NCBI GenBank assembly: GCA_025765595.1
Contig: JAIVFH010000023.1
Span: 307,610 to 371,609 of the forward strand
Length of the DNA: 64,000 bases
Direction: 5' to 3'
Origin: Obelidium mucronatum
Taxonomy: Eukaryota; Chytridiomycota; Chytridiomycetes; Chytridiales; Chytriomycetaceae
In this document: one piece after another, positions 45,385 through 64,000 of the stretch
Position numbering within the stretch: the first letter of the stretch is position 1
Layout: each line of letters opens with the position of its first letter
Notes under the pieces: generated by a model
What the model saw: only the letters and a program-made list of their open reading frames with translations
What the model was told of the DNA's origin: nothing
The model's database searches: none
Translations under genes and position numbers: made by a program

Positions 45385-45829
45385 TCAATTCAATCTTCCT
45401 GCAATCTTCCACACAAAATAAATTTGTATTGAATTCGGTTTGTTTTCATATATTTTTCTTCAGGTTGTATTGGGTTTGGAAGAGGAGACGACGTAGGCAG
45501 TAAGGAAGTACGTGAATAATAAGTTTTGGAATTTATTGTGAAAAGTCGTGCGATGCTTTCCAGTTGCTGGTCCTTGCTCTGATCTCAGATACTTGTTATT
45601 TACAAGAATTTAGCGAATAGTTCGCTTTGCGGTGGTTGTTCAACTGTTTATGGATGGATGGATGGTTAGAAAGTGAATCAGAAAGTCAGGTACTTTATTG
45701 AACAAGAAGGAAGAACCAAAAAAAATTAGATTCTTGAATGAAACACCCCCCTAAAAATTTAATTACAATTGTAAAAACACCTACCAGATTTCTCTGTATA
45801 CTCGTCTGGGACGTGTCCGGGTATGTCAT
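45385..45829. other. gene-free stretch between USP5-type gene and Fanzor
   Basis: About 445 bases with AT-rich sequence and a short GGATGGATGGATGG run (near 45654). It holds the USP5-type promoter side and the 3' flank of the Fanzor. No transposon terminal repeat could be identified by eye. Confidence 0.4.
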
Positions 45830-48800
45830 TTAAAAACCAGCAGGTCTGTTCCCATAAAGACTATAATGAAACAACAAGTGCCTCATGAGGCAACTTGCTG
45901 AAACATCTTTATCCATAATCTGTTGTTCTCTTTAGCCACAATAAACTCAAATTAAAGAATACTCAAGAAAAAACTTACAGGAGCAACTAGTGGTTGAGGC
46001 AAACCTGGAGCAACGAACCCCGGAGCGGGAAGTCCTGGAACGAGAGGGCACTCGACAAGACCGTACACTGGGCGTACGTGGTTGGTTTGGTCTGGGCATT
46101 CAAAGAAGGGGTGCATTGGCTGTTTGTTGGCATCAATGCACCACCTTCTCCACTGTGGGCGGGGGTTGGCAGCAGGAGGGACAAGGGGAAGACGAAACTT
46201 GCGCTTCTTGTGGGGGCACCTCCTGGTGGGACGCCGGACCTATAAATATGCAATAACATTACTAACAATGCAGAAGGCAATTTTAATGAACTGAAATACA
46301 ACTTACAGCAGTGTGTTGGGGATACTGGAATACTCCACCATTTTCATAGCCAGCACAATACAAACTCGATTTTTGAGACGTGTTTCTCTCATTAATCAAG
46401 AGGACAATGTGTTGACTTGCCATCTTTTCTCTCACACGCTAATTGGAAAATATAGAGTCTTTTAAATAGCCGAAATCACTAATCAAATCAATAGAAAAAC
46501 ATACCACATTGGGAACAGGTGCCCATGGACGTTGATGATCCCAGCTCCCATCACCATAAGCAAAGATGACTGGGGTATCAGGAAATGGTCCAATACCAGC
46601 TGCACGACGAAAGCGGCGTCTCCGGTGGCGATCTCTTGGCTGGATTCGGCGTTGGGCATTGACCACAAAGTCATGCTCGGTAGTCCTTCTCGCATTCCAA
46701 TTGATGAGCATCGCCTCAGCCCTTTGGTGTCTCATGAATGTTCGCTGCTTCCACTTTCTGTGCTGAGGACGGCGGTATTCCTGTAGCAAGCAATCGTGCA
46801 TGCATGTATTCACCAGCCAATTCCAAAAACACCAGTCCTCCGTACTACGATGGCCAAACCTTCTGGGGGAATTGGCAGCAAGCAAGTCGTACGACGCATT
46901 GATTCGTGGGTCATTGTCACGGAATCTCTCGCACAACTTCTCACTGGCCTTTGAGTGGTTGATTTGTCTCATTTGGCCATGAGAGACAGAGACAACATGG
47001 TCGTGTAGCACATCTACAAGTAAAATGATTAATTAACATTGTGCTCAAAACTTTCTCTAAAAAGTGCTACTCACGTGAGATATGTTCCTCCTGAGTAACA
47101 GCTGGTGGGCGTGCTACAGGAAGGGGATGTGGAGCTATCGGACCTGCAAGTGGTGGCAAGGGTTGCGGTGCCGGTGGTGGAAGTGGTTGTGGTGGCAGTG
47201 GTCGTGGTGGTCGCACTGGAGGTGGTGGTGGAACAGGTCCGACCGGAGGAGGAGGAGGACCCTGATTGATGAGATGAGTAATATCTCTGTTGGTAGAAGT
47301 GATGACGTGTCTGATTCCTGTATCATTGCAGGGAAAGTATTTGTTAAACTCATTTCAAGAACAAAGAATCATAAAAACTTTAAACAAACCTGGATCAACT
47401 CCGATAATATCCTCAACAGCAATTTGTTGGTTGTTGATCCGTACATTCAGGTCCAAATTCAAAATTCCCTTATCAACCATGAAAATTCCTCGCCTCCAAT
47501 CCACAATGTCGTTAAAGTCAATGTTGTTTCCAAGAGTGTGGGCATTATCATGCCAGTTGGTTTTGACAAACAAGAGAGGATTTGCCCCATTGGCAGCATT
47601 ATGGGCAATTAGGTCATCGTGATTTGTCTGGAACGTCCAGCGGAAACCTCTTCCATCACTTTGGACAAAGTAGGATGCTGTTGAATAAAAACACGGTTTT
47701 AGCAAACATTGAATAAAGACAATTAATTCCAAAGAAGCTTACCATTTCTTTGAGTCCTCATCCTTACAGGCCACTTGATGCAAGTTGGGTCAAAAAAGAG
47801 ATGGAGCAATTCCCTTCTTCGGTCTTCGTGGTTTGGTCCCTCAATGTGTCCCATATGTGCACGAGGATTTATGCCAGCTTGGGTCAGGATGTCAACTGCT
47901 GGCAATACTACCCCCACAAAATACTGGGCCGCCAAGAGTGTAGGGTGACCAGCGTGACCGGGAGGGAAAAGATGGGGAGTTGCTGCAATAGCTGGCAAGC
48001 CAACATAAGGCAATGGTTGAACTGCTCCTTGAGGCAAGTTTTGCGGAGGATCCTTCAGTACATTGACAATGTACTGAACCAAGACACGGTAATCCATTCC
48101 AATAAAGATTGGTTGGGCAGTAGTGGAGTTGGTTGGAAGGATAGTAATTGGGACAAAAGTTTCATAGCCCAGACCTTCAAGCGTTGGACGAACAAAGCTT
48201 GTAAGGAAAAAAATTTGGTTACTAAACACTAATGTGTGATACACAAGGAGATTTTGATAACTTACTCTCGGGTGTAGGCCAGAATATTGGGTGCCATTCT
48301 TCGCCCAGCACTGATGAGGTTGGCTTCAAAGTGACCACCACGTACAAGGTTGTTCCAAGGCATTACTTCCAAGAAATCCCTGTGAGGAGCAAGAAAGTCA
48401 ATAATGACTTGCTCAACCCACACTGGAACTGTGGCTGGAAGTCCAATGTTTGCCCCAACCAAAAATGGAGGAGTCAAGTAGTTGTAGATGGCAATCTTGG
48501 CAGCACCATTTTCAGCTGGTGTGGGAGCATGGGGAATAGCTGGCAGATTTGCTCCAGCCCGCAACGCGCAAACCTCTCTGAACACCTATAGCACAGGAAA
48601 TCATAGGGTTAATAAGTGGTAGTAGTGAGTAACCAAATTTCATTGTTGCCTACCAATTGAGCCAATCTAGCAGCATTCATGATGAATCTTCGAGCCATAG
48701 CATTCTTGAAGTCCTTCAGCATCCGGATGGCTTGGATGCTAATAATTTGTTCCCAATTCCTGTTGAGAGCTGGAACAAGGGGAACTAATCGGTTGGCAGG

Positions 48801-49352
48801 GCGGTTGGCGTGGTTGATGGGGACTGGAACTGGAGCAACTCCCCACTGGTAGTTTGGCAATGACGACGGGTCCACTTTTTCCTTGATGGTGCGGAGTAGA
48901 AAGTGTTTGGCAATGTCTCTCTCACGGCCCTCGGCAGGACTCCCTACAATGGGAGCAAAGTAGGGAGTGCCAGGCGGGTTCATGGGGAGACGCTGGTAGT
49001 TGGCTGGCAGCCCCACAACATAGCCAGGTGTGATGAGATTATACGAGCAGTACTTTAGAAGAAACTCAAAAAAGGATTGTGACATTTGAATGTCTCCATG
49101 GGAAGTACCTGAGATGACATGAATGGGTGATGTTAGTTTTATTTCATTTTAATGAAGGGGAAAACCAAAAACCCAAATACCGGTTGGATTGCTCTCCAAG
49201 TGAATAGCCAAAGCTATTTGAGCTCTGGATACAATTAGAGTAAGGTCTTGGGCTAGAGTACTGATGACTGCAGGGAGCACAGGGAGAAGCTGGTGGACCA
49301 CTGCTCGGTTGAGCCCACACGCATGGGTGCGTATGTGATCTCTGGCAGCCAT
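45830..49352 (-). CDS. Fanzor (eukaryotic TnpB-like RNA-guided RuvC nuclease family)
   Basis: Ten exons (49181-49352, 48654-49108, 48266-48585, 47743-48197, 47390-47677, 47075-47317, 46505-47013, 46307-46438, 45979-46239, 45830-45919) join with every phase correct to give 974 residues and no internal stop. RuvC-I is EDIIGVDPGIRHVITSTNRD (Asp ~562, across an intron). The usual RuvC-II area reads FAYGDGSW (~796-802) without the canonical Glu. The alternative Glu sits ~30 residues on in LLINERNTSQ (Glu ~831), followed by Cys-rich zinc-ribbon remnants (LYCAG, RRCPHKK, RWC, FFECPD). RuvC-III is DKDVSASCLMRHLL (Asp ~950). This order is the Fanzor/TnpB hallmark; related proteins cut DNA guided by an RNA encoded at the element end. 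A ~50-residue proline-rich insert follows RuvC-I. Activity is inferred, not shown. Confidence 0.87.
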
Positions 49353-49794
49353 GGCAGCCAATGGTCTTGAGCTTGAAGGAGTAAGTAGAAGGAGGCTAGT
49401 AGCTGAGTTGAGAAGGAGGTTGGTTGTTTTGTTTTGATTCTTTTGTTTTGATGCTCAATTCCACCTATTTATACCTCTTTTTGTCCCCTTGAAAATTTGA
49501 TTCAAGTTGTGATGATGAAAGGGGATTGGCTAGAATCTTTTTTTCTGAGAATTGGGATTGGCTAGAATCTTTTTCTGATGAAGGGGAACTTGTAAAACAA
49601 TTTCAACCAATTAAGAGAGTTGCAAGAGTTGGTTATCTACCAAATGAAGAATGAAGACAATGGAAGTACTTTAATCAAAACATAAGTTTATTGCTTTTCT
49701 CTCTGTCCTGCAATACAGCACCAGCAAAACTTGAAAACTAACCCAACCAATAAAACAAACTCCTCACAAGCAAACATTCCTCAAAAGCAAACAT
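49353..49794. other. intergenic stretch upstream of Fanzor with short direct repeat
   Basis: About 440 bases with the Fanzor promoter side. The phrase GATTGGCTAGAATCTTTTT occurs twice (about 49522-49541 and 49554-49573). No gene is seen. Confidence 0.4.
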
Positions 49795-51327
49795 TCATTC
49801 CAAGCAAATTCCACAAAAGCACTTTTCTTTGTCTTTGTTTTCAGGTTGCCTGGAATTCTGCAACTTTGCTTGGTAGTCAAGAGTACATGCCTGGAAGTTG
49901 ACCTGTTGTTCTTGATGCCACCTCATTAAAAGCCAAGATGCATCCTGTCTCCCGTACAAGGAGTCTGGATCCCTGGTAGCGTAGTTGGTATGAGTAAAGA
50001 TGCGATGGATAGTCATCATGTGCCTGGCATTGGTTGAAGGGTTGGACCAGACGTCGGACCCAGTAATCACTCCATCGTAGCGTGCAATGGAATCAGGTTC
50101 CCCCACCCAACCATCCAAGGCAAGAGCTTTCTGGAGTGCATTGTAGCGAGCCGCAAGAATGGGAAGACGACGCAACTCTCTTTCCATTTCTGGAGTAAAC
50201 TGTCTTGGAGGATTTGCTGCGATTGAAGGAGGAAGAGGAGGTGCCTGAGTAACATTTGGCTCTGGAATAAACGGTGGTGGTGGTGGGTGGAATGGTGGAG
50301 CTTTTGGGAAGTAGACTTGATGACCAGCTGTCCCAGAAGTTCCTTTGCCTTTACCGCCACGTTTGGCCTTGGCCTTGGAGCCTGCTTGTTCAGCCTTGGG
50401 TCCCAATGCAGTAGCAGGGGGGGAATCAGTAGCACCCTCCTGTTGAGCCACCTTGTAAAGTTTTCTTGGTTTTTTAGCAGTTGATGGTGGAGTTTCCAAG
50501 TCGTCGGTATAGCTCTCCCTCTTGATTTTGTTCCTGCTTGATGATCCAAAATCATCAACATCATCCCAGTCATCGGAATATCCAGCATCGTCCAATTCCA
50601 TGTACCTCCTTGTAGTCCTCCTTGTAGTCCTAACCCTCACAGAAGATAGCTTTGGCTTTGTGTTGGTTGCCGTTCCAGACACAGCGGCATCGGGCTCTAT
50701 AATCCTGCCAATTTTTCGAAGTGTCCCCCCAGGCAAAGATGACTGAAGTGGCCCACCAAACTTGACGCCACTATTCAGTGGACCGGAATTGTACACGGGA
50801 TCTTGTAGCTTGCGAAAGTTTAGGTCAACTGAACCACCAGGAGCTGAATCAATCGGATGACCAATGACGTCCTCCATGTCCTCTGCAATAAAGTCATCCA
50901 TGTCATCGTCAATTAATTCATTGTTTATGGCCTTGGAGGTGGCGTTTTCCATGATGGCGGCCAGTTGCTTAACGTGAAAAGAATTGAGTGCTTCACTCGG
51001 AGTTTCAAGGGCAAAGGCATTATCATGCGAGTCTTTAGAATTAACATTGGATGCACCGTCTGACGCGTCGTCGTCCTCATCATGTTCAGAATCAATTCCT
51101 TCCTTGGTTTCCATGGACTCAAACTTGACGCAATCATTCATTGGACTGGATGAAGCAGGGATGGACGTCGCGTTCAGGTGGTCATTGTCCTCCTTGAATT
51201 CAATCTTGGGGACAAGAGGTGCTGGGAGTGGCGGTTGGGTTGGTTGGTTGTCAATGGCTTTGTCAGAATCAGAGTCATGCACAGTGTAGATGACAGTCTT
51301 GCCAGCATTCCTTGATGATCTTCTCAT
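49795..51327 (-). CDS. orphan acidic/basic nuclear-type protein next to Fanzor
   Basis: A single long open frame of 510 residues starting at ATG 51327. The N-terminal ~170 residues are acidic (HDEDDDASDGAS; INNELIDDDMDDFIAEDMED). A basic middle follows (VRVRTTRRTTRRYMELDD; RNKIKRE; KAKAKRGGKGKG), then a Pro-rich segment. The C-terminal ~140 residues look folded (LPILAARYNALQKALALDGWVGE; MMTIHRIFTHTNYATRDPDSLYG; SWLLMRWHQEQQVNFQA) and end in a Cys pair (CFCGICLE). Charge pattern suggests a nuclear or chromatin role, which is inference. It is co-oriented with the Fanzor and faces away from the dioxygenase gene. I do not recognise a family. Confidence 0.65.
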   Translation of the reverse strand: MRRSSRNAGKTVIYTVHDSDSDKAIDNQPTQPPLPAPLVPKIEFKEDNDHLNATSIPASSSPMNDCVKFESMETKEGIDSEHDEDDDASDGASNVNSKDSHDNAFALETPSEALNSFHVKQLAAIMENATSKAINNELIDDDMDDFIAEDMEDVIGHPIDSAPGGSVDLNFRKLQDPVYNSGPLNSGVKFGGPLQSSLPGGTLRKIGRIIEPDAAVSGTATNTKPKLSSVRVRTTRRTTRRYMELDDAGYSDDWDDVDDFGSSSRNKIKRESYTDDLETPPSTAKKPRKLYKVAQQEGATDSPPATALGPKAEQAGSKAKAKRGGKGKGTSGTAGHQVYFPKAPPFHPPPPPFIPEPNVTQAPPLPPSIAANPPRQFTPEMERELRRLPILAARYNALQKALALDGWVGEPDSIARYDGVITGSDVWSNPSTNARHMMTIHRIFTHTNYATRDPDSLYGRQDASWLLMRWHQEQQVNFQACTLDYQAKLQNSRQPENKDKEKCFCGICLE

Positions 51328-52169
51328 GTCGTTGTTGTTGTTGTATCTTTTTCTTTTAATTGATTGAGCAAATCGGGTCTCTTATACTTTCCTTTCTCAG
51401 GGGTTGACACGACAACTTGGCATCACATCGAAAACAAAAACAAAAACAAAAACAAGATTAGTCAACACACACACACACAATTACTCCAATTTATGTCCCA
51501 TCACTCTGTTCCAATACTCAAAAAAAAAGTTTAAAAAAGTTTTTTGGTTGCTTTTTGTAATGACGCTCACTTGATATACCACAACACGGTTCTTTGTGTT
51601 GTTCATCAATCTCTTTGCATCAAAACAATAAAAGCGGGAAGTTGAGAGACCGCGGGGGACGTTGGACTGCTTTTGGTTCATTAAAAACAGTCTTAGCATG
51701 GAACCCCAAACCATGCGCGTCAACAAAGACGGTTCAAACTCAACGGACCTCAACTTCCCTCAGTCGCAACATGAAATGAACCCTCAGTTTAACCCATAGA
51801 TCCCTCAGTCAACCATAGAGCCGTCACCCAAAAAAAAACCCCAGCCCTCAGACATGCAAACGTGTAGCTTAGAGTACTTTGCAATTTTGCCCCACTGTGA
51901 AGGATTCGCATTCCAATGCCGACGGTTTAGAGCATGCCATCATTGGGGGGAGTTGTTGGGGGGGAAGGGAGGTGGAAGCCCTCCCTTTATATACCCCTCC
52001 CTTTTTCAAATAACCAAGCATCCCAAATGACAAACCGAGGGAAAATTTTTGTCAAGGAGCTCATATTGGAGGAAGCAACAGACCAACCGAGGCTCTGCCA
52101 TTCACACACCGAGTTTTCCCCTCGAGTTGGTTTGATTTCTTTCCCCAAAAGAAAAAAAAAAGGAAAAAA
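51328..52169. other. intergenic region between orphan gene and dioxygenase gene
   Basis: About 840 bases between two divergent starts. It contains short (CA)n and AAACAA-type runs near 51425-51480 and a repeated CCCTCAG motif around 51780-51850. A minus-strand open frame at 51481-51753 has no recognisable features and is probably chance. Confidence 0.35.
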
Positions 52170-53353
52170 ATGAAAATCCCGGCGCTGAAAAGGGCCCAAC
52201 ACAATTGCCATGACCGCCAGCACCCATCACTGCCTTTGCCACCACGTACCAAAAAGCCAAGATGGCACAAACTATTTGACAATCCTTCCTCAGTAAAAGC
52301 CTCCAGAGTCCCTAGGCCTGGAAGATCAGCAAAACAAACCATGGCTGACCACTTTATGGCCACCAACTTGGACGCTGAAACTGCAAAATGGACCACTATC
52401 TATTTGAACAAGACTGGCTCCCATAATCAAGAGCTTGAGAATGTCCCAGAAGATCGGCTTGTCCGCCTTGTTGATGAAACAACTGGAAGAGTCATTGCCT
52501 TAATGTAAGCCACTAAGCAACTGTTTTTTATTGCAATTCTGAACACCTATTCAAGATATAGGAATGTGATTCCTTTGGATCTCCTTGATCACATTGCCCT
52601 GGCGGAATACCTACGAAATGCCCCCATCACTGCTAAAGATTGCAGCAACCTTTCAAAGCATCTGGGGATTTGGAAGAGATATTGTAAATTCTTGTTTGCC
52701 ACCAAGGATTTGTACAATCTTACTACAGCAGACGTTCCAAGTTCTTTAAAATACGACCAAGACGCAGCCATCAAATCCTTGGATGGAATTACAGAATACA
52801 TGACCGAGTTCTACAGGGCGTACCTCCCAGGTCTTTACGATTTTTATGCAAGGATTCGTCGCAAACTCAAGGAATACAAGGAGGTTGTGGTCAAAGACCC
52901 TTCCAGTGTCGAAGCCAAAACAAAACTCGCCTCTGCACTTTTGTCGCAACTGGATGACAAGTTTTTGAATGTATTTTCCACATGTGCTGTCTCGTACAAC
53001 TCTCCACGGGCAGCCAAAAGTCATCGGGACCTAAACAACTATGCTTACGCCATGGACGCCTGTATTCCCTTTGGCCCCTTTTCTGGAGGTGATATAATTT
53101 TTCCACAGTATAGAAAAGCTGCAAAGCTATCTCCGGGAGACTTTATTCTCATGGATGCATACCATTTTGATCACAAGGTGGGACCATTGAAGGAGACAGA
53201 TTTGCCGTCATTCTTTTTGCGGACAAGTGGGCCACCGACTTTTTGTTTAACCCAAAGAAAAAGAAGGGGGAAAAGAATCGTACATTTAGGGGCAACCTGA
53301 GCTTCCCATTAGAGGAGATGGGATTGAGAATGAAGTTTAAACTGCCTGAATAA
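52170..53353 (+). pseudogene. JBP1/TET-type 2OG-Fe(II) dioxygenase with a one-base frameshift
   Basis: Exon 1 is 52170-52504 and exon 2 begins at 52562, joined in phase. The C-terminal half has a 2-oxoglutarate/iron dioxygenase core resembling the JBP1/TET-like domain common in fungal genomes. HRDLNN gives the H-x-D ligands (His ~266), FGPFSGGDIIFPQYRKAAKLSPGDFILMDAY the central strands, and HFDHKVGP the distal His (~316). Right after KVGPL the frame used upstream turns into unrelated sequence and stops at 53300. Shifting by one base at about 53187-53191 gives EGDRFAVILFADKW, the expected 2OG-binding Arg strand, and runs to a stop at 53353. It is therefore either a decayed copy or carries a sequencing deletion. 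Family members oxidise modified bases; activity here is unknown. Confidence 0.65.
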
Positions 53354-53500
53354 ATTGTTCTTTTTTTCCAAGTATTAAATCTCATACTGCCGCAGTATCA
53401 GAATCTTTACTCTGCAGGGTTGACGTTCAGGAAGACTTTAACTTCCAGTTGGATGAAGTGGGGTGGAGAGTGTAGCTTAAACTGCCTGAATAAATGACGT
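53321..53500. repeat. duplicated tail of the dioxygenase gene
   Basis: The gene end (AGTTTAAACTGCCTGAATAAAT at about 53333-53354) recurs at about 53474-53495 as AGCTTAAACTGCCTGAATAAAT. It is preceded by a related coding-like stretch (GTTGACGTTCAGGAAGACTT...GGGGTGGAGAGTG), so the 3' end was duplicated and has decayed. Confidence 0.55.
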
Positions 53501-53913
53501 GAACTTGGTATTGTTGAGTCATTGTTTGTTGGAAAGGGTTTGACTTGTTTTATGATTATTGCCTGCCTTGGGGTACAGGGACAAGGAATCTGAGACCATA
53601 ATTTGTTATTACGTATCTATTAATGCTAGATCAAGTGTCATTTTGTGATTTTAGGGCCGCGGTCGCGGTAATACTGTTGAGAGGTAAAACTCACCCAAAC
53701 ATTTAGGCAAGCACAAAAATCTTTGCAACGCTTACCAATAGATTTTAATGGTTGCTTTGTATTGGTTTGCATGGTTTTGGAGAGTTGGGCCCATGGTGAT
53801 TTTTTGTGAGATGAAGACTTGTTTATTCCGGGTAAATGTCTTGCCACTATTCGGCTCAAGGGGGTGCTCATTTTTTATTAAAATCAAAACAGGGATAAAG
53901 AGACGGCAAAGTC

Positions 53914-55029
53914 TCAGTGCCAAAGTACCCTTTGCCATGTTCTCAGCTCCCATTGAGAATTTGCATTTAAGTAATCCCAAGGAAGAGGGGGTTTTCCTTC
54001 CTCACTAAATTCGTCAGGGATCAAATCCTGAACGTCTCCCAGTTGACTGTAGAGGAATGCATGGTTGTAGGAAGTACCCTGCACAAAATTCTCTCCATTC
54101 CGCTTCATGAGAGTAATCTCACCCACATAGATAAATAGAGTTTGAGCGTATAAGTACTCTGACTCGCTCAGCCTACAAGCAAACGCCAGGGCTGGCTTCA
54201 CACACTTGTAAAGCCATACCCTTTCCACTTCATCCCGTAGCATTGCCTCCCACACATATCGTAATGCGTATATATTTCTTTGAATGACCGAGAACAATAG
54301 GAGATTCATGCAATTCCCCAAGCGGCGGAAAACATCACCATCAATCTTGCTTTGTATCATATCAAAAGATGTGTCTGCTGCAATAGAGGACAATACAAGC
54401 AGCAGGCAACCTTCGTTCTTGCTTCCTCCAATACAGAGATGTCCATTGTTGAGTGGGTAGTGGGGTAGATTTCCATGATGGAGGCCAATTTCCCTGGGTG
54501 TAATCTCCACCAAGACTCCTTTCGTTTTAGGAAACCAATAAATGTGCCAGAGAGACTGAGCAATCTTGATTGGAATGATTGCTTCCTGACAAAAGATTCT
54601 TGATAGAACCCCCAGATGCAATTCCAGATTTGGCCTACCGCCAACTGTAACTAATAATTCAGGGCTTCTGATACTGTAATGGCGTCTTGCATAAGCCCTG
54701 GCAAATTGTGGGCTTCCGTATATTGAGTTGAAGATTGGGAATGATAGGATCCAGATGTTGGGGAGATCGCTGGTATCCAAATAGAGAAGGATTGACTGGC
54801 ACAACTCAGTGCTATTCAACACCCCTCTCATTGCGGGGTCTTGATCTTGGGAGGGAAAGAGGCCTGATGTGATGTCACCCAATTTGATTCGGTTTCCCCC
54901 CCAAGATCTAACAATGACTCAGGCATCTTCATGGTCTCCAGAAGGATGGCTACTCTGTCGATATAGTCTTGGGTGATGTGGTGCCCGTTGTTGCGGTCTG
55001 ATCTTTGCTGTCTTCTTTGTGTGTGCCAT
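53914..55029 (-). CDS. F-box-like protein of the island
   Basis: A two-exon model (54954-55029 and 53914-54863) keeps phase and gives about 341 residues. Exon 2 alone has no suitable ATG before residue 44, which is why the upstream ATG at 55029 was joined to it; the splice is unproven. An F-box-like segment is visible (NSTELCQSILLYLDTSDLPNIW; FPIFNSIYGSPQFARAYARRHY). The rest is mainly helical (FRRLGNCMNLLLFSVIQRNIYALRYVWEAML; KCVKPALAFACRLSESEYLYAQTL). Fungi often have large F-box families that select ubiquitination targets. The first residues, MAHTKKTAK, resemble the histone H3 tail, probably by chance. The start lies 12 bases from a copy of the palindromic repeat. Confidence 0.5.
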
Positions 55030-55040
55030 TTTAAGAAACA

Positions 55041-55071
55041 AAAATTAACGCCGTCAGACGGCGTTAATTTT
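55041..55071. repeat. GC-rich palindrome, copy 1
   Basis: AAAATTAACGCCGTC and its exact reverse complement meet around a central A/T base, a perfect 15-bp inverted repeat. The same core recurs at least four more times in the next 1.8 kb. Confidence 0.9.
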
Positions 55072-55580
55072 ATTGATAAATCAAATCGACACCAACTGAC
55101 TTTGTTTCAACCTCCCAACTTTTATTGAATTTCAAAAATGCTATTTTGACACTCACACAAAGTCCTCTGTTTGTTCATAATAATAAAGCAAATCTTATTT
55201 CCAAATAATGAACGAATCATCTCGGTTTCTTCGACATCGGCCGCAAAACTTCCATACACATCTCAATGGTGATTTGAATTGTCCCTGTTGACCTGGTATC
55301 TATTAACAAACCCAATTAGCGAAGATGATGCAATTATTATTCAAAACAACCTAGCGGCTACAAAGATGATGCCGTTCAACGCCCAAATCGGTCAGCGAAT
55401 AACCAACAGTTTCGGTCAGAATTGACACGACGGTTAGCAGCGGTTTGTTGTTGTCGCCGATGTCTTTGATATCTTCGGTCGAAGTCGCTGCGAGCAACGC
55501 CCGCAAGCAGTCGCTGCGCGACGCTGCGGTAGAGTGCGTTGTCCGCCTGGTTTGTTTGGTGATTGGTGTTTTTTTATGGT
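55072..55580. other. gene-fragment stretch between palindrome copies
   Basis: About 500 bases with no intact gene. The minus strand at 55351-55560 reads a helical peptide-like fragment (DCLRALLAATSTEDIKDIGD; LLTVVSILTETVGYSL) that runs into a palindrome copy and is then lost. It looks like a broken piece of a gene I cannot name. Confidence 0.35.
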
Positions 55581-55582
55581 CA

Positions 55583-55616
55583 ATAAAAATAACGCCGTCT
55601 GACGGCGTTATTTTAT
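55583..55616. repeat. GC-rich palindrome, copy 2
   Basis: AATAACGCCGTCTGACGGCGTTATT core with AT-rich flanks. The flanking phrases TTTTATGGTCAATAAAA and GTTCACAAAATGCCAACAAAA also surround copy 3, so the repeat unit is larger than the palindrome itself. Confidence 0.88.
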
Positions 55617-55891
55617 TTCGTTCACAAAATGCCAACAAAATGCCGCAATGTGATTTGGGAAAGAGTCTTGTCAAACTGCACATGACCGTCAACGGAGTAG
55701 TTGGTACTTCCAGCAGTCAGCAGTGGGACAGTAAACTCAGCTGGCTTGAAATACTTTCCACCGCCGACTTTAACAGTGTGTGTGTGTGTGGCTGTTTTTA
55801 TGTGGAAGTCGCCGCCGCGCAGCAGCGCAAGGTGCACCGCGTCCATTCCATTAGTAAGCCATTACTAATCCTCTTTCTTTCTTGCTGACAG

Positions 55892-56165
55892 ATCGAGCTC
55901 GAACGCGTCGAAGACGTCGAAGACAGAAAAGTCGCACACGAGCGGGAACTCGAGGGCAAGGAGTTCAAGGACGCCTTTGTCACTGATGCATTCAAGAAGC
56001 ACAAGGACGACATGCGCAAGCTGGAAGAGGAGGAAGAGCGGCGCCGCCCGCCGTCGACGATGCGACGGACGCCGACAGCGACACGGCGACGGGCGAACTC
56101 CGGCGCGACGAGTCCGCGGACGGCGCCGCCTCGTGCGCCGCGGCGGCGGCGTCGACAGTGAGGCT
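55892..56165 (+). pseudogene. exon fragment resembling NSRP1/CCDC55 splicing regulator
   Basis: After an acceptor-like TTGCTGACAG, the plus strand reads IELERVEDVEDRKVAHEREL, then EGKEFKDAFVTDAFKKHKDD and a Glu-rich run. This parallels the conserved core of nuclear speckle splicing regulatory protein 1 (REREMEKGEFDDKEAFVTSAYKKK type). Shortly after the Glu run the acidic continuation (DDATDADSDTATGELRRDES) is only found in another frame, so the fragment is broken. No start, earlier exons or end are present. Confidence 0.5.
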
Positions 56166-56429
56166 TGAAAAAATTAAGCAAAACTTCTTCACCAACTTAC
56201 ATTTCGAGTCGTACAATTCATGGTATTGTTGAGCACTGGTACGAGGTCGGCTTGTTTGGCTGCAGCCAGAAACTTGCGTCTAGGCACCTGCTCCTGGTCC
56301 TTCAGCAGGAAGCTGCGCAGCTGCTCAATGCCGTAGGCGCCTTCCGCCACTGTCGAGCACACGTCGGACTGCTCGAAGTCGGACGTGGTTGGTGTTTGTT
56401 TATGGTCAATAGGTGTTTGTTTATGGTCA

Positions 56430-56464
56430 ATAAAATTAACGCCGTCTGACGGCGTTATTTTATT
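56430..56464. repeat. GC-rich palindrome, copy 3
   Basis: Same core, AACGCCGTCTGACGGCGTT, with flanks almost identical to copy 2 (TTATGGTCAATAAAA before; TTTGTTCACAAAATGCCAAC after). Confidence 0.88.
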
Positions 56465-56659
56465 TTGTTCACAAAATGCCAACAAAATGCCGCAATCCCA
56501 AGGCCAAGGAAGCTAAAGCCCAAGGTCACGGCAACTGAATCAGTGGCGCTTCATTGGCCGCCGAAACGGAGATTGTATATTATTAAATTAAATATTACAA
56601 TGCATCTCCGACGCCACCACCACATGCAACGCCTTCGTCTGCACGCTCTGGTGGTGGTT

Positions 56660-56745
56660 TAATGCCGTCTGACGGCGCAAACGGCATGAATTTTATTTTA
56701 TTCACAATGTAATGACCAAATTAATGCCAGCTGACGGCGGTAATC
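56660..56745. repeat. two degenerate copies of the palindrome core
   Basis: TAATGCCGTCTGACGGCGCAAACGG (from ~56660) and TTAATGCCAGCTGACGGCGGTAATC (from ~56720) keep most of the core but are imperfect, as expected of older copies. Confidence 0.7.
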
Positions 56746-56779
56746 ATTTAGTTCAATTTGAATCATTCATTATTTTTAT

Positions 56780-56815
56780 CAATAAAAATTAACGCCGTCT
56801 GACGGCGTTAATTTT
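56780..56815. repeat. GC-rich palindrome, copy 4 (full)
   Basis: AAAAATTAACGCCGTCTGACGGCGTTAATTTTT, a perfect inverted repeat of 16 bp per arm, again preceded by a TCAATAAAA phrase. Confidence 0.9.
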
Positions 56816-57162
56816 TTTTTTTTGTTGATTTTGCTCAAACTGCAAACTGACGCCACGCCATCTAACGTGCTGGCTGCGTCCCGTCTATTCTTGTTCGTTA
56901 TGGAAAGTGACACACCTTGATGGAAGAAAGGGACATTAAGAGGGAAGTCTGTGATCGCCTGTACATTATTAAATAAATTCAAAAGTATATTCAAATCATT
57001 CAAATCTGCGGAAAGAAGATCACTCAAAAATAACTCTGGCAAATTGGATTCACCAAAAAAATCCCAAGGTTTGGTGTGTTGTGCCAGCATCACGTTCTTG
57101 GCTAAACTACACGACCAATCAAAGCAGGTTTCTTTATTGTTCTTTATCGACAGAAAGCAACA

Positions 57163-59880
57163 ATGAACCAAGGTACAGGGGTGTTTGAATGAGTGATCTT
57201 GATTGGATCACACCTTTGACACTTGATTGTTTACAAACAGGATCATCTTCCACCTCAAATGTGTCAGCCACTTCATTGACTTTGGCAAACGACGTTGATG
57301 AACAGCGTTTGTATCTTCCTTTTGTTTTTTTGGGCATCTACAACAATGCCATGATCTAACATATACATCCACACCCACACCCCAACATACAGGTTTGTAT
57401 TTTGTTGAAAATGTACTCAGTAGCATGGCAAATGTCCAAAACCCCGATGGTGGAATTTTGGATTTCATGGTTGATTTTTGGAAAAAGGTTGATAACAGTG
57501 TTGGAAAGTTGACGGAACACACAAACACATTGATGTTGATCATCCTCATGTTTGGACACATGACAAAGGTTCTTGATTTTCTGGAACCCAGCAAACGTAC
57601 TACAAACAGATCTGGATCTGGAGCCGTTGTCACATTTCAGGCCTCTCAAAACGCGTACCAAATGTTGACCAAAGAAACATCGGCAAGCAAAGCAACTAGA
57701 GCCAATAAGGCAAGTGGAAACAATCACATGTATTTTACAGATAATAAACATATTTAACCTTCTAAATAGATTGCTGTTATGTTGCAACTTCTGATCAACA
57801 ACAAGATTGAACCATTCGCCGCCTTGGATCTCTGTATAAAACGTGATAAGTCTGTAATAGATTCCCTCACCCCAAGGGATATTGCAACGCGATTAGCCAA
57901 AGATTCAAGGGCTATTCTCATGGCCTTTGAGAAACTGTTGCCTGAAGGGAGTGTTATCAACAGCAAGACGGTTGATAAGTTGTATTCAGTCCTTATTGAA
58001 TTAGAACAGGATGATTGGGATGTTGCGGATTTTGAGGCGTTGGTCAGCGCAAAATTGAGTTCTATACAACCACGGGTACAAAGACAACAGGTAAGATATC
58101 ATTTTAATCATCAAAATGCCTTCTCCACTTTCGTTCAATTTTATTTCAAAATTAAAACCCAGGCTCCCGAATCCTATCACATTATTGGGGGTGATGGGGG
58201 AGGAAGAAGAAAACCCAAGAGAAAGGCAGCTTCCTCCAGCTCTCCATCACAAGCAAAACCTCCAACAAAACGAGTAATAGAGGACACCACAAGTGAATCG
58301 GAAGGCGGTGGTGATGGTGGGGGGGATCCTAAGGGGAAACAGACAGGTCCCCCAAAGGGGAAGGGGAAGGGGAGGGAGAAAGCTGCTCCCAAGGAGCAGG
58401 AGATAAATGAAATTGAAGAGGGTGAAGACTTTTATTATGGGGGAAACAGTCCGTATAACTCCAAAGCAAGGGGGCGAGATTCGCGCCAAAAGGAAAAGGA
58501 GTATTCTGTAGAGGACATGGAGCTAATCAAGGAATTGCTACAGACCAAAGAGAGCAGGAACTACAAAGCCACCACACAGATGACTCAGCATACTTTGATC
58601 GCAATGATTTGGAATTTAGAAACGATACGAATTCATCTTTGACATCAACGGCTTTTGTGCCAACAGTTTCGTATGAAACCCAAGTGTGAGGCTGAAGGAG
58701 GATGTTGTTCACTTCTAAATCCATTCTTACTGACAGAGTCGTTATTTTTCCAAGAACGGGAACAAACCAAGTTACTATCCACAAGGAAGACTTGGAGCGG
58801 TTACAGGAAGGGGAATTCCTGAATGATACTTTAATCGAATTCTATATACGGTGGGGCTGGAGGACCAAACTTCTTTTTTCTCATCTTTCCTTTCCTTGGA
58901 AATACTTACTTTTTGCTTCAATTTTGTCAGATACACCACCTTAACGTATAACAGCGATCGACTGGACAAGTTTCATATTTTCAACACATTCTTTTTCCAA
59001 ACATTAACAACAAAAGACCAGGGTGCTGAGTAAGTTTGCTAATTCTTTCTTTTGAATTCAAAAAAAACGCCGACTTTTAATCTGCCAGGAAACTTACCAT
59101 TGCCCATACATATAAAAAACTTCAACGATGGACACGAAAAATAGATATATTCAAGAAGCGATTCTTGATTATACCCATCAATGAGCGCATTCATTGGTAT
59201 TTGACTGTGATTTGGAAACCAGGAGCCATTTTGGCCAAGGAACCTGATTCAAAGGCAGCAGATGCAGTGATTGTTTTGGATGATGATGATGATGATGGCG
59301 GGTCAGTGATTGTCGAAAACACGGTTGGCTTGGAACAGAAAACTAAAGACGCGGGAGACAAGTTGAGTTGTACTTACAAGTTGGCAATTGGTGCAATATC
59401 CTTACACCAATCTCAGCTGCACTATTTTTATTTTCGACTCCTTGGCAGGAAAACACCCTCACGTTGGGACAAATTTGGTCGCTTATTTGGCGGCTGAAGC
59501 AAAGGATAAACTTAATTGCAGCACTATCAAAGAGACGCCAACAGTGATTTATGCAAAGGTTTGCTTTTTATTTTGAGAGGCCGCCGGTATTGATTGATAT
59601 AAATCATAATAGGTACAGCATCAGAAAAACTTTTGCGACTGTGGATTGTTTCTGCTTCATTACATTGCTGTGATGCTCAGATGTCCCGATAAAGTCTCGT
59701 CTGCCATTATGGTAATTTTGGTAGTAGTTCTTTGCATTATTTTTTCTCAATTCATTTTTTGTCTAGAACGGAGAGCCTTTGAATACAGCCGAGTTTGGGA
59801 CGTTGCTTGAAATACGAGCAATACGGCAGTTTATGAAGAACAAATTGGGAGAGCTCATTGCTACAGGCACACAAGAATAA
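57163..59880 (+). CDS. Ulp1/SENP-type SUMO protease with long disordered N-terminus
   Basis: A gene of about a dozen exons; start 57163 is tentative (a 10-base first exon). The middle introns are clearer. One, after SKATRANK, uses a GC donor (AAG|GCAAGT) and resumes at IAVMLQLL. Residues before the protease are helical, then charged and low-complexity (GGRRKPKRKAASSSSPSQ; GEDFYYGGNSPYNSKARGRD). The C48 domain follows: VTIHKEDLERLQEGEFLNDTLIEFY, FHIFNTFFFQTL, IDIFKKRFLIIPINERIHWYLTVIWKPG (catalytic His), IFIFDSLAGKHP (Asp) and HQKNFCDCGLFLLHY (Gln and Cys). All catalytic residues are present. An acidic insert (DDDDDDGGS) sits after the His strand. Such proteases remove SUMO-like modifiers and are also carried by several eukaryotic DNA transposons. 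Confidence 0.83.
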
Positions 59881-59889
59881 AAATCTTTC

Positions 59890-60222
59890 TCATGCATTTG
59901 ATTTAAAATGTATGCAAATTGCAATTGGTGGGAAGCTTGTTTTGTTTCCAGCCAGTTGTTTGCCCCAACCAAGGTGAGTAGCCTTGGTCCCTCTTTTCTT
60001 TAAATCTTGCTTGATTACACTCAAGGATCTCACCCATTTGGAGAGCATTGATCGATTAATGTTCAGGCTTGATGCTACCCTGCTTAGTGCCCCAGTTCGT
60101 TGTAGACGTGCTTGCGGATTCTCCTTTTGCAATACATTAGCCAGACTCAAGACCTGATTGACTGCTTTTTCTTTGTACTTGAGGCTGTATTGCTTTCTCA
60201 GTGATTGAGGGGGGTGTTTCAT
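59890..60222 (-). CDS. small helix-turn-helix protein, transposase-like fragment
   Basis: A 110-residue frame with ATG at 60222. The N-terminal half reads LRKQYSLKYKEKAVNQVLSL and ALSRVASSLNINRSMLSKWV, the spacing of a pogo/CENP-B-like or Brinker-like DNA-binding helix-turn-helix. There is no catalytic domain. It is convergent with the protease gene and ends 10 bases after it. It may be the stump of a transposase or a stand-alone DNA-binding protein. Confidence 0.45.
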   Translation of the reverse strand: MKHPPQSLRKQYSLKYKEKAVNQVLSLANVLQKENPQARLQRTGALSRVASSLNINRSMLSKWVRSLSVIKQDLKKRGTKATHLGWGKQLAGNKTSFPPIAICIHFKSNA

Positions 60223-60968
60223 GTCAGTTTCTTGACAATTGTTTTTGTTTCTTCTTTTGTGTAAAAGACTTTAGTTACTTCGTAATCCCGTGAGATCTCC
60301 TGAAAGAAATAAACTTTTTACCCGAAGTACATTGTAGTTTCACGGAATTGCAAAGAAAGAAATAAGCCCTTCATTGAAATTGGTCTTGAACTCTAGGGCC
60401 CTCTGTTCATCGCCGTAACTCGCGAATCTTCCAGGAGTACAAATTTTCACTGTGAGGTTATGTACGGTGGTTATGGGAAGTGAAGAAAGTTTTATGGAAC
60501 GTTTGGAAAGACCATGTTGAAGCAAGACACTATGAATGAGGAAAGAGGGGAAACATGAACGAGACTTTCTTCCTCTAAGTTTAATTGAAAATACCCGTAA
60601 AGTAAAGGTGGAAGAAGGTGATCTTTTTCATCTCACTGCTTGTCATCTCACAAGATGAATTCCTTTCTTTCACCTCATTTTCCTGAAAAATCGTAATACC
60701 TTTCTTTCTTTTCGTCGGATCTAGACAAACAAAGTGGCTGGGGAATTTCCCCGTGTAGGATACTCATTTGGACAAGATATGCTTTCTTGTGTTTTGGGAA
60801 AGGGAGAGGGGAGAGGGAAAAGTCTCGTGCCTCCTTTTTTTTGATGAATGGCTCAGGGAGGTTCTGGGTGACAGAGGTGGGTTGCACACAATGTTTGTTT
60901 GTCTTTCTGTTAAAAAGAGATAATCATTGTTATCTTCCAAAAACAAGTGACGTTGAAGAAACCGCAAG
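60223..60968. other. gene-poor stretch with a 3'-UTR-like repeat
   Basis: About 745 bases without a recognisable gene. The segment at ~60296-60362 (CTCCTGAAAGAAATAAACTTTTTACCC...GTAGTTTCACGGAATTGC) nearly repeats the sequence just after the LRR gene stop (~61889-61960). It is probably the remnant of the 3' end of an older copy of that gene. Confidence 0.5.
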
Positions 60969-61862
60969 ATGGACGGTTGCAAGGACTTAAAAGTTCGGCT
61001 GTCTGGCCTTCCGGTGGAGGTGGTGGAACAAGTACTCAGCTGGGTCCATCCTCGCGCGGCCATGAAACTTCGATTGCTCTCACGGTCCTTCTATGCATGT
61101 TTATCCAGTCGATCTTTCTGGGTGAAAAACTTTCTTCGCTTCCCTCCAAAGCTTTTCATGGGTATTTTGAACGCCTGTGATTTTCTGTTTTTTCCAGTTG
61201 GGTATCAAGAAGCACTTGCTTCGCGGGTTGGGGATAAAGTAACAAAAATCAATTGGTTCGGGCTACAAGAGGGAAAGACTGCAAACATCCCAAACTGCAT
61301 CAACCAATTTTCTCTTCTTCAGAGCTTATCCATTTGTGGCGTGAAGATGTTGGGTGGAATTCCAAAAGAAATCGGAGACTTAACCAACCTGAAAGGGCTA
61401 TTTCTTGGATCCAATCACTTGACTGGCGAAATACCAGACTCGCTTGGATGTTTATTGAATTGCAAAATTTTGAATTTGGCTGACAACAGTCTTACTGGGA
61501 TGATTCCTGGTTCCCTTGGAAACCTGTTGAAATTGAAAGATTTGATCTTGTATAGCAATCTGTTGACAGGGCCCATTTCACCCGCGTTAGGCAGTCTGAA
61601 ATCGCTGGAGAATCTCTTTTTGTCTAATAACTTTTTGACTGGCCCTATTCCTGAGAGTCTGGCTTCTCTGGGGCGGCTTGGAAATTTGTGGCTCGACAAA
61701 AATCGCTTGACTGGAACGATCCCAGAGAGTTTCTCTCAAATGAGACACCTGAATACTTTCGTTTTCGATAAAACCCCAGAGCTTATACTTTCACCAGTTC
61801 TCGAGGCTGGACTCCGGGCTAATGGAGTTGTTGATAGATTTGCCAACTTCATAATCTCATAA
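60969..61862 (+). CDS. F-box protein with plant-type leucine-rich repeats
   Basis: A single exon of 297 residues. An F-box opens the protein (LKVRLSGLPVEVVEQVLSWV; AMKLRLLSRSFYACLSSRSFW). From about residue 105 there are at least six tandem ~24-residue LRRs of the plant-specific type, with consensus L-x-x-L-x-L-x-x-N-x-L-T-G-x-I-P-x-x-L-G. Clear examples are NHLTGEIPDSLGCL, NSLTGMIPGSLGNL, NLLTGPISPALGSL, NFLTGPIPESLASL and NRLTGTIPESFSQM. The F-box would dock onto Skp1 in an SCF ubiquitin ligase while the LRRs choose targets. The combination with plant-type LRRs is seen in chytrids, by recollection. Confidence 0.83.
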   Translation: MDGCKDLKVRLSGLPVEVVEQVLSWVHPRAAMKLRLLSRSFYACLSSRSFWVKNFLRFPPKLFMGILNACDFLFFPVGYQEALASRVGDKVTKINWFGLQEGKTANIPNCINQFSLLQSLSICGVKMLGGIPKEIGDLTNLKGLFLGSNHLTGEIPDSLGCLLNCKILNLADNSLTGMIPGSLGNLLKLKDLILYSNLLTGPISPALGSLKSLENLFLSNNFLTGPIPESLASLGRLGNLWLDKNRLTGTIPESFSQMRHLNTFVFDKTPELILSPVLEAGLRANGVVDRFANFIIS

Positions 61863-61884
61863 GTGGGTTGTTGGGATGAATTGA

Positions 61885-61962
61885 TCTCCTGAAAGCCTTC
61901 CCTGAAAGAAATAAAACTTTTTACCCAAAGTACTGAATATTGTAGTTTCATGGAATTGCTTT
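61885..61962. repeat. 3'-flank repeat of the LRR gene (second copy)
   Basis: CCTGAAAGAAATAAAACTTTTTACCCAAAGTACTGAATATTGTAGTTTCATGGAATTGC matches ~60300-60360 with a few changes and one 5-base insertion. The pair flanks the LRR gene as direct repeats. Confidence 0.7.
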
Positions 61963-62064
61963 CAAACAAAGCAGACTACAAGCGCTTCTATGAGCGTGAA
62001 AAAAATACTTACAAACTACATAATATATTACAAAAAGCTATAGAACAAAATTCAATCAATTGAA

Positions 62065-63261
62065 TTATGACAGTCCATTTTCATGCTCGAAATTCTTCTC
62101 CATCACCTCCTCTTCCTTCTTCTTGTATATCTTGTCCACCAATGACCGAATATCACTGAAAAACACTTGTCGAAACTCTTGCTGAAACAATAGAATCACT
62201 GATAGCGTCAAAAGTGGATCGAAAGCGGGTATCACAGACGCAGCAAACAAGAGCCACGTTGTTCGAAGAGAGAGCTGAAAAAAATTGGGATTCCATATCG
62301 ACAGATACATCATGACTATGCTTGGAGCGTATAAAGATAGTTGGAATACGGACATGAAGATGCATCGGAGCAACACGGACCTTGTTTTTAAGCAGCAAAA
62401 TTTTAACTTCATTTTTGACTTGGCTGGTCAATATCTTTGTACATTACCGATGAAGCCGTGTCCGAGTATTTAAGGCTCTATTCTCGGACCATCTGGCCTC
62501 AGGGTCGTCGTAAATATCGGCAATCAAGAAGTAAGTGTTTTCGTAGACAACACATATTGCCAAGGAAATCAGCGGAAAAAAAGGAGATTCCAATAATAAA
62601 CAGGACGCCATAAGCTTCGCCTGGCCTCAGTACATAGCCTTCGGTTTCGTTGCCAGTAACAGGGATACCCAACGGTAAAAAGTCCCAGCTCACAAGACCA
62701 TCCTGAAAAAAGTAGTTTCACATTTTAGAAAACCCGCAGCCACCATATTCTTGGGGAAAAAGTTGATTTTTCTCTCACATAGATTATGAACGATGTGATA
62801 AACATGCACCAGAAAGGTATCCCACAACACGCCGCCACCCCCAAAATCCACACCCAAGATAAGCGCTGTTTCCATCGAACCAAGCAATGCCGCTCCATCG
62901 ATAGCAATAGATTCCCCGTAAACAATATAGTCAGAAGAAGGTATCCCAGGCAAGACAGGCAATCGGCAGTTATCGGATCATGAAGAACCTTGACTGTATG
63001 GAATGCATCATAGACCCACAGCTCATCGACAACCACCATATACACGCCATTGAGTACTGAAGCGACAATCATGAGAATCACAATCGCTGCAATGTTGTTT
63101 TCTGTTGACAATAGCTCTTTGCGATGTCGAAAGACAGACACCAGGACACATAGATTTGCAAAGACTCCAATGGAACAGACGCCTGATGCTATATGTGATG
63201 CTTTGACGTTGATGTCTAAAAAGAAGCCGTAGAGTGGATCTTCTGGAAGACTTGCGTTCAT
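62065..63261 (-). pseudogene. rhodopsin-like 7TM receptor gene with single-base frameshift
   Basis: Three exons (62779-63261, 62448-62702, 62065-62380). Seven hydrophobic segments are visible: VCSIGVFANLCVLVSVF, AIVILMIVASVLNGVYMVVV, LGYLLLTILFTGNLLLSMERH (ERH at the DRY position), WVWILGVAACCGIPFWCMFI, VLFIIGISFF/PLISLAICVVYEN, CIFMSVFQLSLYAPSIVMMYL and LFAASVIPAFDPLLTLSVILLF. Exon 2 is 255 nt where 254 is needed. A T7 run (A7 at ~62576-62582 on the plus strand) shifts the frame inside TM5, and T6 would restore GISFFPLISLAICVVYENTYF. The neighbouring paralogue reads through the same site (GMSYFLIVSLVICGIYENSYF). Either a disabled receptor or a sequencing insertion. Ligand unknown. Confidence 0.78.
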
Positions 63262-63410
63262 GGTTTCACTTAGAATTTATTTTTATCAGTAATACCCCTT
63301 TTTTTCCCCCAACCAAGCCCAAATCGGATTAATGCTTTTATTTTAATTTTTTTTGTACATGCATGTATAAAAGAAAGGGACATAGAAAAAAAACGACACT
63401 CAAGCCTTGT

Positions 63411-64000
63411 TCACAAAACTTGTTTCTGCGAGGATGAAGGCCAACACCTCCTCCATAAACTCTTGAAAGCCTCCACAAACGCCTCTTTAAACTCTTGCTG
63501 AAATAGTAAAATCATGATGGGAGACCATAGCGGATCAAACGCGGGTATTAATGTAATGCAAAAAAGCAGCGTTTGGTTGATTGAGATTGTGTAGAGGAGA
63601 TCATGGTTGAAGGCTGTGACGAACATGAGAATAATGGATGGGATATAGAAAATCACGAGACCGATCGACATGAGAATGCATCGAACAAGTGCCACCCTGA
63701 ATAAAAAAAAGATGTCAACAACCAAAAAAAAAAAAAAGAGCAAGAAATATCGAGCGATTCCCACCTTTGAACCTTGACATTCTCATGCACCAATCTCTTC
63801 CCCGTCACAACATCATACTCTGGATCCTCCTCCGTATCAAACACGGTTGCAATCAAGAAATACGAGTTTTCATAGATCCCGCAAATCACCAACGAGACAA
63901 TCAAGAAATACGACATTCCCGCATGAATAAAACAGCCTGTGTGTTGTCATTGTGCAGAGTCCTATATCATAGTCCCCAAGTGCATGGCTTGCCCAAAGGA
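63411..64000 (-). CDS. 7TM receptor paralogue, C-terminal part (runs off window)
   Basis: Two exons are visible (63765-63936 and 63411-63696); the 5' part lies beyond the window end. They encode TM5 (GMSYFLIVSLVICGIYENSYFL), TM6 (VALVRCILMSIGLVIFYIPSIILMFV) and TM7 (LLFCITLIPAFDPLWSPIMILLFQQEF), then a short cytoplasmic tail. The intron after KVQR sits at the same codon as in the neighbouring receptor and includes T-rich runs. The shared IPAFDPL motif in TM7 and LLFQQEF after it identify a tandem pair. Intact as far as visible. Confidence 0.78.

Follow-up and report, generated by a model that had tools for sequence, protein, structure and literature searches.

A Divergent Fanzor1-Like Gene at the Putative Right End of a Mobile Element in the Chytrid Obelidium mucronatum

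A ten-exon gene of Obelidium mucronatum probably encodes a divergent Fanzor1-like nuclease; it is under purifying selection and probably belongs to a mobile element, whose right end it occupies. New here are what looks like that right end, at position 45691, a proline-rich insertion after RuvC-I and a linked TET/JBP-like gene; the points worth pursuit are this neighbour, the precise right end, the proline loop and the loss of the zinc ribbon. A literature search, with most subscription papers outside its reach, found no paper pairing Fanzor with Obelidium or Rhizoclosmatium, and a search for Fanzor with "TET JBP" likewise found none, in a wording where the slash of TET/JBP may defeat the term.

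Gene structure and coding constraint

The window, meaning the whole 64,000-nucleotide stretch analysed, covers positions 307610–371609 of contig C23 and reaches the contig end, in a genome of 48.3 Mb; coordinates below are those of the window unless a contig is named. Rebuilding the gene from the window DNA joined ten minus-strand exons (45830–49352; Table 1) in phase into exactly 974 residues, as originally predicted, and all nine introns, of 59–72 nt each, are GT...AG.

Table 1. Features of the Fanzor1-like locus and its neighbours, in window coordinates.
Feature	Position	Strand	Remarks
Terminus TTGTTCAATAAAGTA	45691..45705	-	Minus-strand reading; DNA below 45691 varies between copies
Conserved non-coding DNA between stop codon and element end	45691..45829	-	139 nt; candidate omega-RNA scaffold / right end
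Exon 10	45830..45919	-	RuvC-III DKDVSAS; D950 codon 45905-45907; stop codon ends 45830
Exon 9	45979..46239	-	Degenerate zinc-ribbon (TNB) region
Exon 8	46307..46438	-	INERNTS; E831 codon 46388-46390
Exon 7	46505..47013	-	RuvC core with YRRPQHRKWKQRTFMRHQRAEAMLIN (segment matching SpuFz1) and GDGSW
Exon 6	47075..47317	-	Largely taken up by the proline-rich insertion, shortly after RuvC-I (52% Pro over residues 583-640)
Exon 5	47390..47677	-	SDG motif inside; RuvC-I GVDPG at its end; D562 codon 47394-47396
Exon 4	47743..48197	-	Rebuilt from window DNA
Exon 3	48266..48585	-	Rebuilt from window DNA
Exon 2	48654..49108	-	Rebuilt from window DNA
Exon 1	49181..49352	-	Start codon begins at 49352; matching exon in C21 copy
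TATAAATA box	49466..49473	-	Some 115 nt before the start codon; the C21 copy is preceded by one too; read directly
Linked gene, no Pfam family	49795..51381	-	528-aa frame; 510 aa when counted from the first Met used
TET/JBP-like dioxygenase (2OG-Fe) gene	52170..53300	+	Two exons modelled, 359 aa

A copy on contig C21 is also open from start to stop (992 residues, ten exons as in the window gene), and both open copies keep D562, E831 and D950. Comparison of the two by the NG86 method gave dN/dS of 0.19/0.96 overall and about 0.19 (0.255/1.37) for exons 1–5, and 0.12 (0.122/1.04) for exon 7, all without a significance test; in exon 9 (0.031/0.066) divergence is too small to judge constraint. Because dN/dS is low between two open copies, most of the Fanzor-like protein appears constrained. 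Judged by this pair of sequences, the window gene is protein-coding and most of its product has evolved under constraint, which backs the earlier description of the gene as apparently intact.

The rest of the family is in poorer condition. At least 54 matching stretches were found on nine contigs, that of the window included (E ≤ 0.01, among the best-scoring candidates). Besides the two open copies, eight were read (two on C39, two on C16 and one each on C41, C42, C53 and C14; a match on C24 lies outside this set), and every one is broken or partial. The first C39 copy, for example, matches C21 at 96% identity along 8.9 kb and is broken in exon 4. Loss of acidic residues from the broken C41 copy was considered and rejected, Glu being read in place of Asp at both 948 and 950, beside a one-base deletion; with this reading a small argument for a working Fanzor-like nuclease falls away.

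Fanzor1 signatures and the missing zinc ribbon

All of the predicted motifs were read in the predicted order: GVDPG at residues 560–564, GDGSW from 798, INERNTS with E831, and DKDVSAS with D950. GDGS is a Fanzor feature. The RuvC-I DPG signature of Fanzor1 takes the form GVDPG in the window and C21 copies and SVDPG in P0002, a relative from Rhizoclosmatium. The alternative RuvC-II Glu of Fanzor1, followed by two Thr/Ser residues, is present as E831-R-N-T834-S835; Glu and TS recur in C21, C39 and one C16 copy, and the second C39 copy keeps the Glu but reads MS. RuvC-III is K949 D950, with KD in place of the RD of Fanzor1 and the Asp present. The site had been described as rearranged; by the accessible text of PMC10711439, the source also of the DPG signature, the alternative Glu is general to Fanzors, and the position of the Glu is thus the family norm. 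A candidate WED-domain motif reads SDG in the window and C21 copies and TDG in P0002, TDG being the Fanzor1 WED signature in the same portion of that source (PMC10711439).

The zinc ribbon is where the protein departs from the published picture. Downstream of this Glu, neither the strict nor the widened pattern finds a C4 zinc finger (ExxxxxxCxxC...CxxC) in the window protein, and the positions expected to hold the first CxxC, 838 and 841, read S..Y. Position 838 is Ser in all five readable copies (window, C21, C39, one C16 copy and the second C39 copy), and 841 is Tyr in four of these and Phe in C39. The zinc-ribbon remnants that had been noted are there, in degenerate form: Cys and His between E831 and D950 are C842, H856, C866, H868, C892, H901, C906, H912 and C922. 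Spacing gives a divided answer. From D562 to E831 there are 269 residues, outside the 120–160 of the pattern in the available part of PMC10711439 and long partly because of the proline insertion, whereas D562 to T834 falls within the D-X(125,275)-[TS][TS] given in that of PMC3627910. As far as those parts give them, the complete patterns of both papers fail on the window protein for want of the zinc finger, which the former ascribes to "many" TnpBs and Fanzors and the latter includes in its strictly conserved motif. Since the protein lacks the C4 finger that the published motif calls for, it is, on its sequence, best filed as a divergent Fanzor1-like variant outside strict membership, unusual but no kind of its own. 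The TNB C4 zinc ribbon contacts omega-RNA in solved Fanzors, according to the accessible text of PMC11423790; if the present protein is active, that ribbon would seem dispensable.

Degeneration of this region also bears on whether the protein still cuts. We regard as somewhat unlikely the alternative of a Fanzor descendant that has lost cutting along with the zinc ribbon, whether it has been retained to bind, for instance in RNA-guided regulation or binding, or is simply a relict of recent date. Retention of all three acidic residues in both open copies and the low dN/dS between them speak against such a descendant, which would nevertheless fit the Ser at 838 throughout, the breakage or truncation of every other copy read, the Lys rather than Arg before D950, and the substitutions and deletion in the C41 copy.

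Remote homology

Database comparison suggests a remote relation to Fanzor1. When a RuvC-core profile (A3) was compared with 177,635 PDB sequences, the sole match at E ≤ 10 was SpuFz1 (8gkh, E = 0.12), the Fanzor1 of Spizellomyces punctatus, likewise a chytrid. A core segment of SpuFz1 is alignable with the window protein (YSHPAHTRWKWHSFINRQKSESDLI versus YRRPQHRKWKQRTFMRHQRAEAMLI), and the D-E-D order is alike in the two. SpuFz1 also came second of two PDB matches in a single-sequence search with the C-terminal third (E = 1.5) and fourth of eight with a whole-length profile (E = 1.1); its match spans just 37–78 residues and alone is not significant. The full-length sequence gave no Fanzor among its six PDB matches at E ≤ 10.

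Family models were silent or nearly so. The whole protein matched no Pfam family, PF07282 included. With the core, OrfB_IS605 appeared at E = 0.16 in one of three members, not the window's own, as one of three chance-level Pfam matches, and NCBIfam returned two chance-level matches only, none of them in the window's member. Several full-protein or profile matches in the Pfam and PDB scans fell on the proline stretch. Genome searches with PF07282 and PF01385 gave no signal at the Fanzor loci; a weak PF01385 place on C166 was read and judged to be chance, and two more weak places lie on C69 and C72.

Relatives in the protein databases were limited to P0001 and P0002, from two species, among the best 8000 candidates by shared words (or 1438) that were scored, the 8000-candidate lists probably being swamped by prolines; a scan of viral contigs found no relative. 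A database protein from Obelidium mucronatum itself resembles the C16 copy. P0002 (BCR33DRAFT_848342, a hypothetical protein of Rhizoclosmatium globosum) belongs to the same family up to GDGSW. Similarity in its deposited model ends after GDGSW..RPWA, so that counterparts of E831 and D950 are not covered, and its proline stretch is short. AlphaFold2 applied to P0002 and exon 7 (a two-sequence alignment) gave a mean pLDDT of 31.5, too low for use.

Lack of a significant family match and an unusable structure model are what one would expect if this were no Fanzor at all, and instead a transposon protein peculiar to chytrids and of unrelated origin, whose DPG, ExxTS and KD fell into order by chance. 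We consider this very unlikely. SpuFz1 is the only match of the core profile in the whole PDB set, the locus has the right-end architecture described below, and DPG / G[DN][GW]S / E..[TS][TS] / [RK]D stood in this order in 0 of 20,000 protein shuffles, or in 54 of 20,000 once the GDGS element was dropped, a rough control only, with patterns composed after the protein was seen. Fanzor homology is therefore probable but remote: ancestry within the family, as originally predicted, stands as the best reading of the core profile, motif order and right end, whereas the published C4 motifs, Pfam and the full-length PDB search do not bear out membership in its ordinary form. So remote a sequence, with no Pfam match and two species among the matches listed, suggests that surveys built on strict zinc-finger patterns miss Fanzors.

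The proline-rich insertion

Soon after RuvC-I the family carries a proline stretch that ranges from about 15 residues in P0002 to about 100 in C21, and this variation in length suggests a tolerated or docking loop. We propose the docking role by analogy with PpFz1, the Fanzor1 of Parasitella parasitica, in which an insertion in the RuvC domain likewise contains prolines and touches cyclophilin through two of them (PMC11423790, accessible text). The same text describes this FRI as a folded, cyclophilin-binding domain of about 100 residues, unlike the low-complexity stretch found here, and reports it in Parasitella and Rhizopus. If the present protein is active, proline-bearing RuvC insertions would seem to arise outside those two genera as well.

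A probable element terminus

Downstream of the gene, alignment of the window, C39, C21, C41 and C14 copies shows identity that passes the stop codon and ends abruptly at 45691, with a different last base in C14. A genome search with 45660–45860 gave a consistent picture: of the 20 matches listed (window included), 12, none of them the window's own, start no more than 4 nt from 45691. A pattern written for this end occurs at eight places in the genome, seven on the plus and one on the minus strand, and its reversed control at none. The eight termini read lead into seven distinct flanks, C187 and C95 having one in common, and the window and C41 flanks are identical in their first four bases beyond the terminus. 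The C21 terminus cuts short a paralogue of the F-box/LRR gene that the window carries at 60957–61862 (+); the break falls some six codons ahead of where that window gene stops. Position 45691 thus has the look of a transposon's right end, and the flank beyond it lies where TnpB/Fanzor guides originate.

Two other origins of this border have to be weighed, namely that it is a transcript 3′ end or the edge of a segmental duplication. An AATAAA sits 3 nt from the end, copies with a common 3′ end vary in 5′ length in the manner of retrocopies, and window positions 51074–64000, a 12.9-kb block beside the gene, are 98.5% identical to C21:263985–276876. Ordinary cleavage does not occur so close to its signal, at 3 nt; moreover, introns are kept in the C21 and C39 copies, none of the eight flanks read is an A-tail, and a single end meets seven different flanks, one of them within an LRR gene. 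On balance we find both origins unlikely and keep the transposon right end as the preferred reading.

The search for copies, suggested at the outset as a way to define the element's boundaries, yielded a probable right one but not the left, which was not found in the window, the flanks of the copies or the eight genome places. Even with up to three mismatches allowed, the 45691 end has no inverted counterpart near the gene in the window or in the copies' flanks, and no inverted pair shares a contig among the eight places. A left-end candidate lies near 53417, where the C16 copy stops, adjoining another repeat. SPu-1-1p we take to be SpuFz1. In the accessible part of PMC3627910, SPu-1 has 33-bp terminal inverted repeats, of which none was found here, and SPu-1-1p is a single ORF of 633 residues, against ten exons and 974 residues for the window gene. 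The latter also differs from SpuFz1 in its proline insertion and in having no C4 zinc finger.

Solo pieces of the Fanzor 3′ end (L044–L047: L044, L045, L046 and L047) occur on C187, C95, C25 and C159, three of them, all except that on C25, with the terminus. They have no counterpart among the at least 54 Fanzor protein matches (best candidates scored). We regard them as candidate ghost guide-RNA loci, resembling the "ghost loci" described for S. punctatus in the available text of PMC10432273.

A possible guide RNA

The layout invites comparison with SpuFz1, in which, by the same portion of PMC10432273, an RNA arises from the gene's own 3′ end and DNA like the flank is cut. As there, the window gene finishes close to the element end, and the guide position would lie past it. 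By this analogy, the protein would most likely bind a guide RNA made from the 3′ end of its gene, taking in the 139 nt between stop codon and terminus and perhaps part of the last exon, with host DNA beyond 45691 as its spacer; the RuvC site D562-E831-D950 would then cut DNA matching the flank, and such cutting could favour retention or spread of the element.

Conservation of the 3′ stretch has a competing explanation. Between the window and C21, identity is 99.3% over the 139-nt non-coding stretch, 96–97% in exons 9–10, 98% in intron 9 and 100% in intron 7, against 89% in exon 8, 79% in exon 7, 62–73% in exons 1–6 and 43–68% in the remaining introns. Because near-identity extends over about 500 nt and a separate intron, patchy gene conversion probably accounts for it more simply than RNA constraint, and as an alternative cause of the 3′-end conservation it may count against the guide-RNA reading. 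Possible conversion tracts are visible as patchy near-identity over 45691–47013. A stable omega-RNA fold of the 139-nt stretch was unsupported (z-score –0.09, no better than shuffles).

Linked genes

Two genes accompany the Fanzor-like gene (Table 1). The 528-aa frame recurs, as a counterpart or in traces, next to Fanzor copies on C21, C39, C16 and C53. Divergent to it in the window is the TET/JBP-like gene, which matched Pfam Tet_JBP at E = 5.6e-6 (26.1 bits, under the gathering score of 34.9) and has counterparts near the Fanzor copies on C21, C39 and C16; C21 and C39 are close duplicates and hence not independent for linkage. Since the protein was matched in more than one frame on all three contigs, these copies may be broken. 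The block starting at 51074 also shares 94% identity with C39 as far as 54786, where C39 ends, and from 51074 to the contig end is probably a large segmental duplication.

TET/JBP-carrying DNA transposons are known from fungi, and there too a TET/JBP-like gene is tied to a repeated block (PMC12730594, accessible text). Those transposons are from Pucciniomycetes, Agaricomycetes and Pezizomycetes, whereas the present host is a chytrid, and Fanzor, Obelidium, Rhizoclosmatium and Chytridiomycota do not occur in the accessible main text of that paper. The linked gene raises the possibility that guided nucleases are tied to the avoidance of DNA methylation. As a speculation that we hold to be quite unlikely, these features may mark a separate chytrid branch of Fanzor1, with no C4 ribbon and a length-variable proline docking loop in RuvC, that shares one element with a TET/JBP dioxygenase, pairs guided cutting with removal of DNA methylation and draws guides in trans from ghost right ends.

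Ulp1-type protease domains are frequent cargo of eukaryotic transposons. A fragment of this type lies at 59081–59497 (+; Peptidase_C48, 27.7 bits, cut-off 20.7). Closer to the TET/JBP-like gene, at 53361–53412, is a repeat of about 40–50 bp that recurs on C118, C54, C35, C136 and C75; on C75 it stands in both orientations about 6.9 kb apart, possibly as the inverted ends of another transposon.
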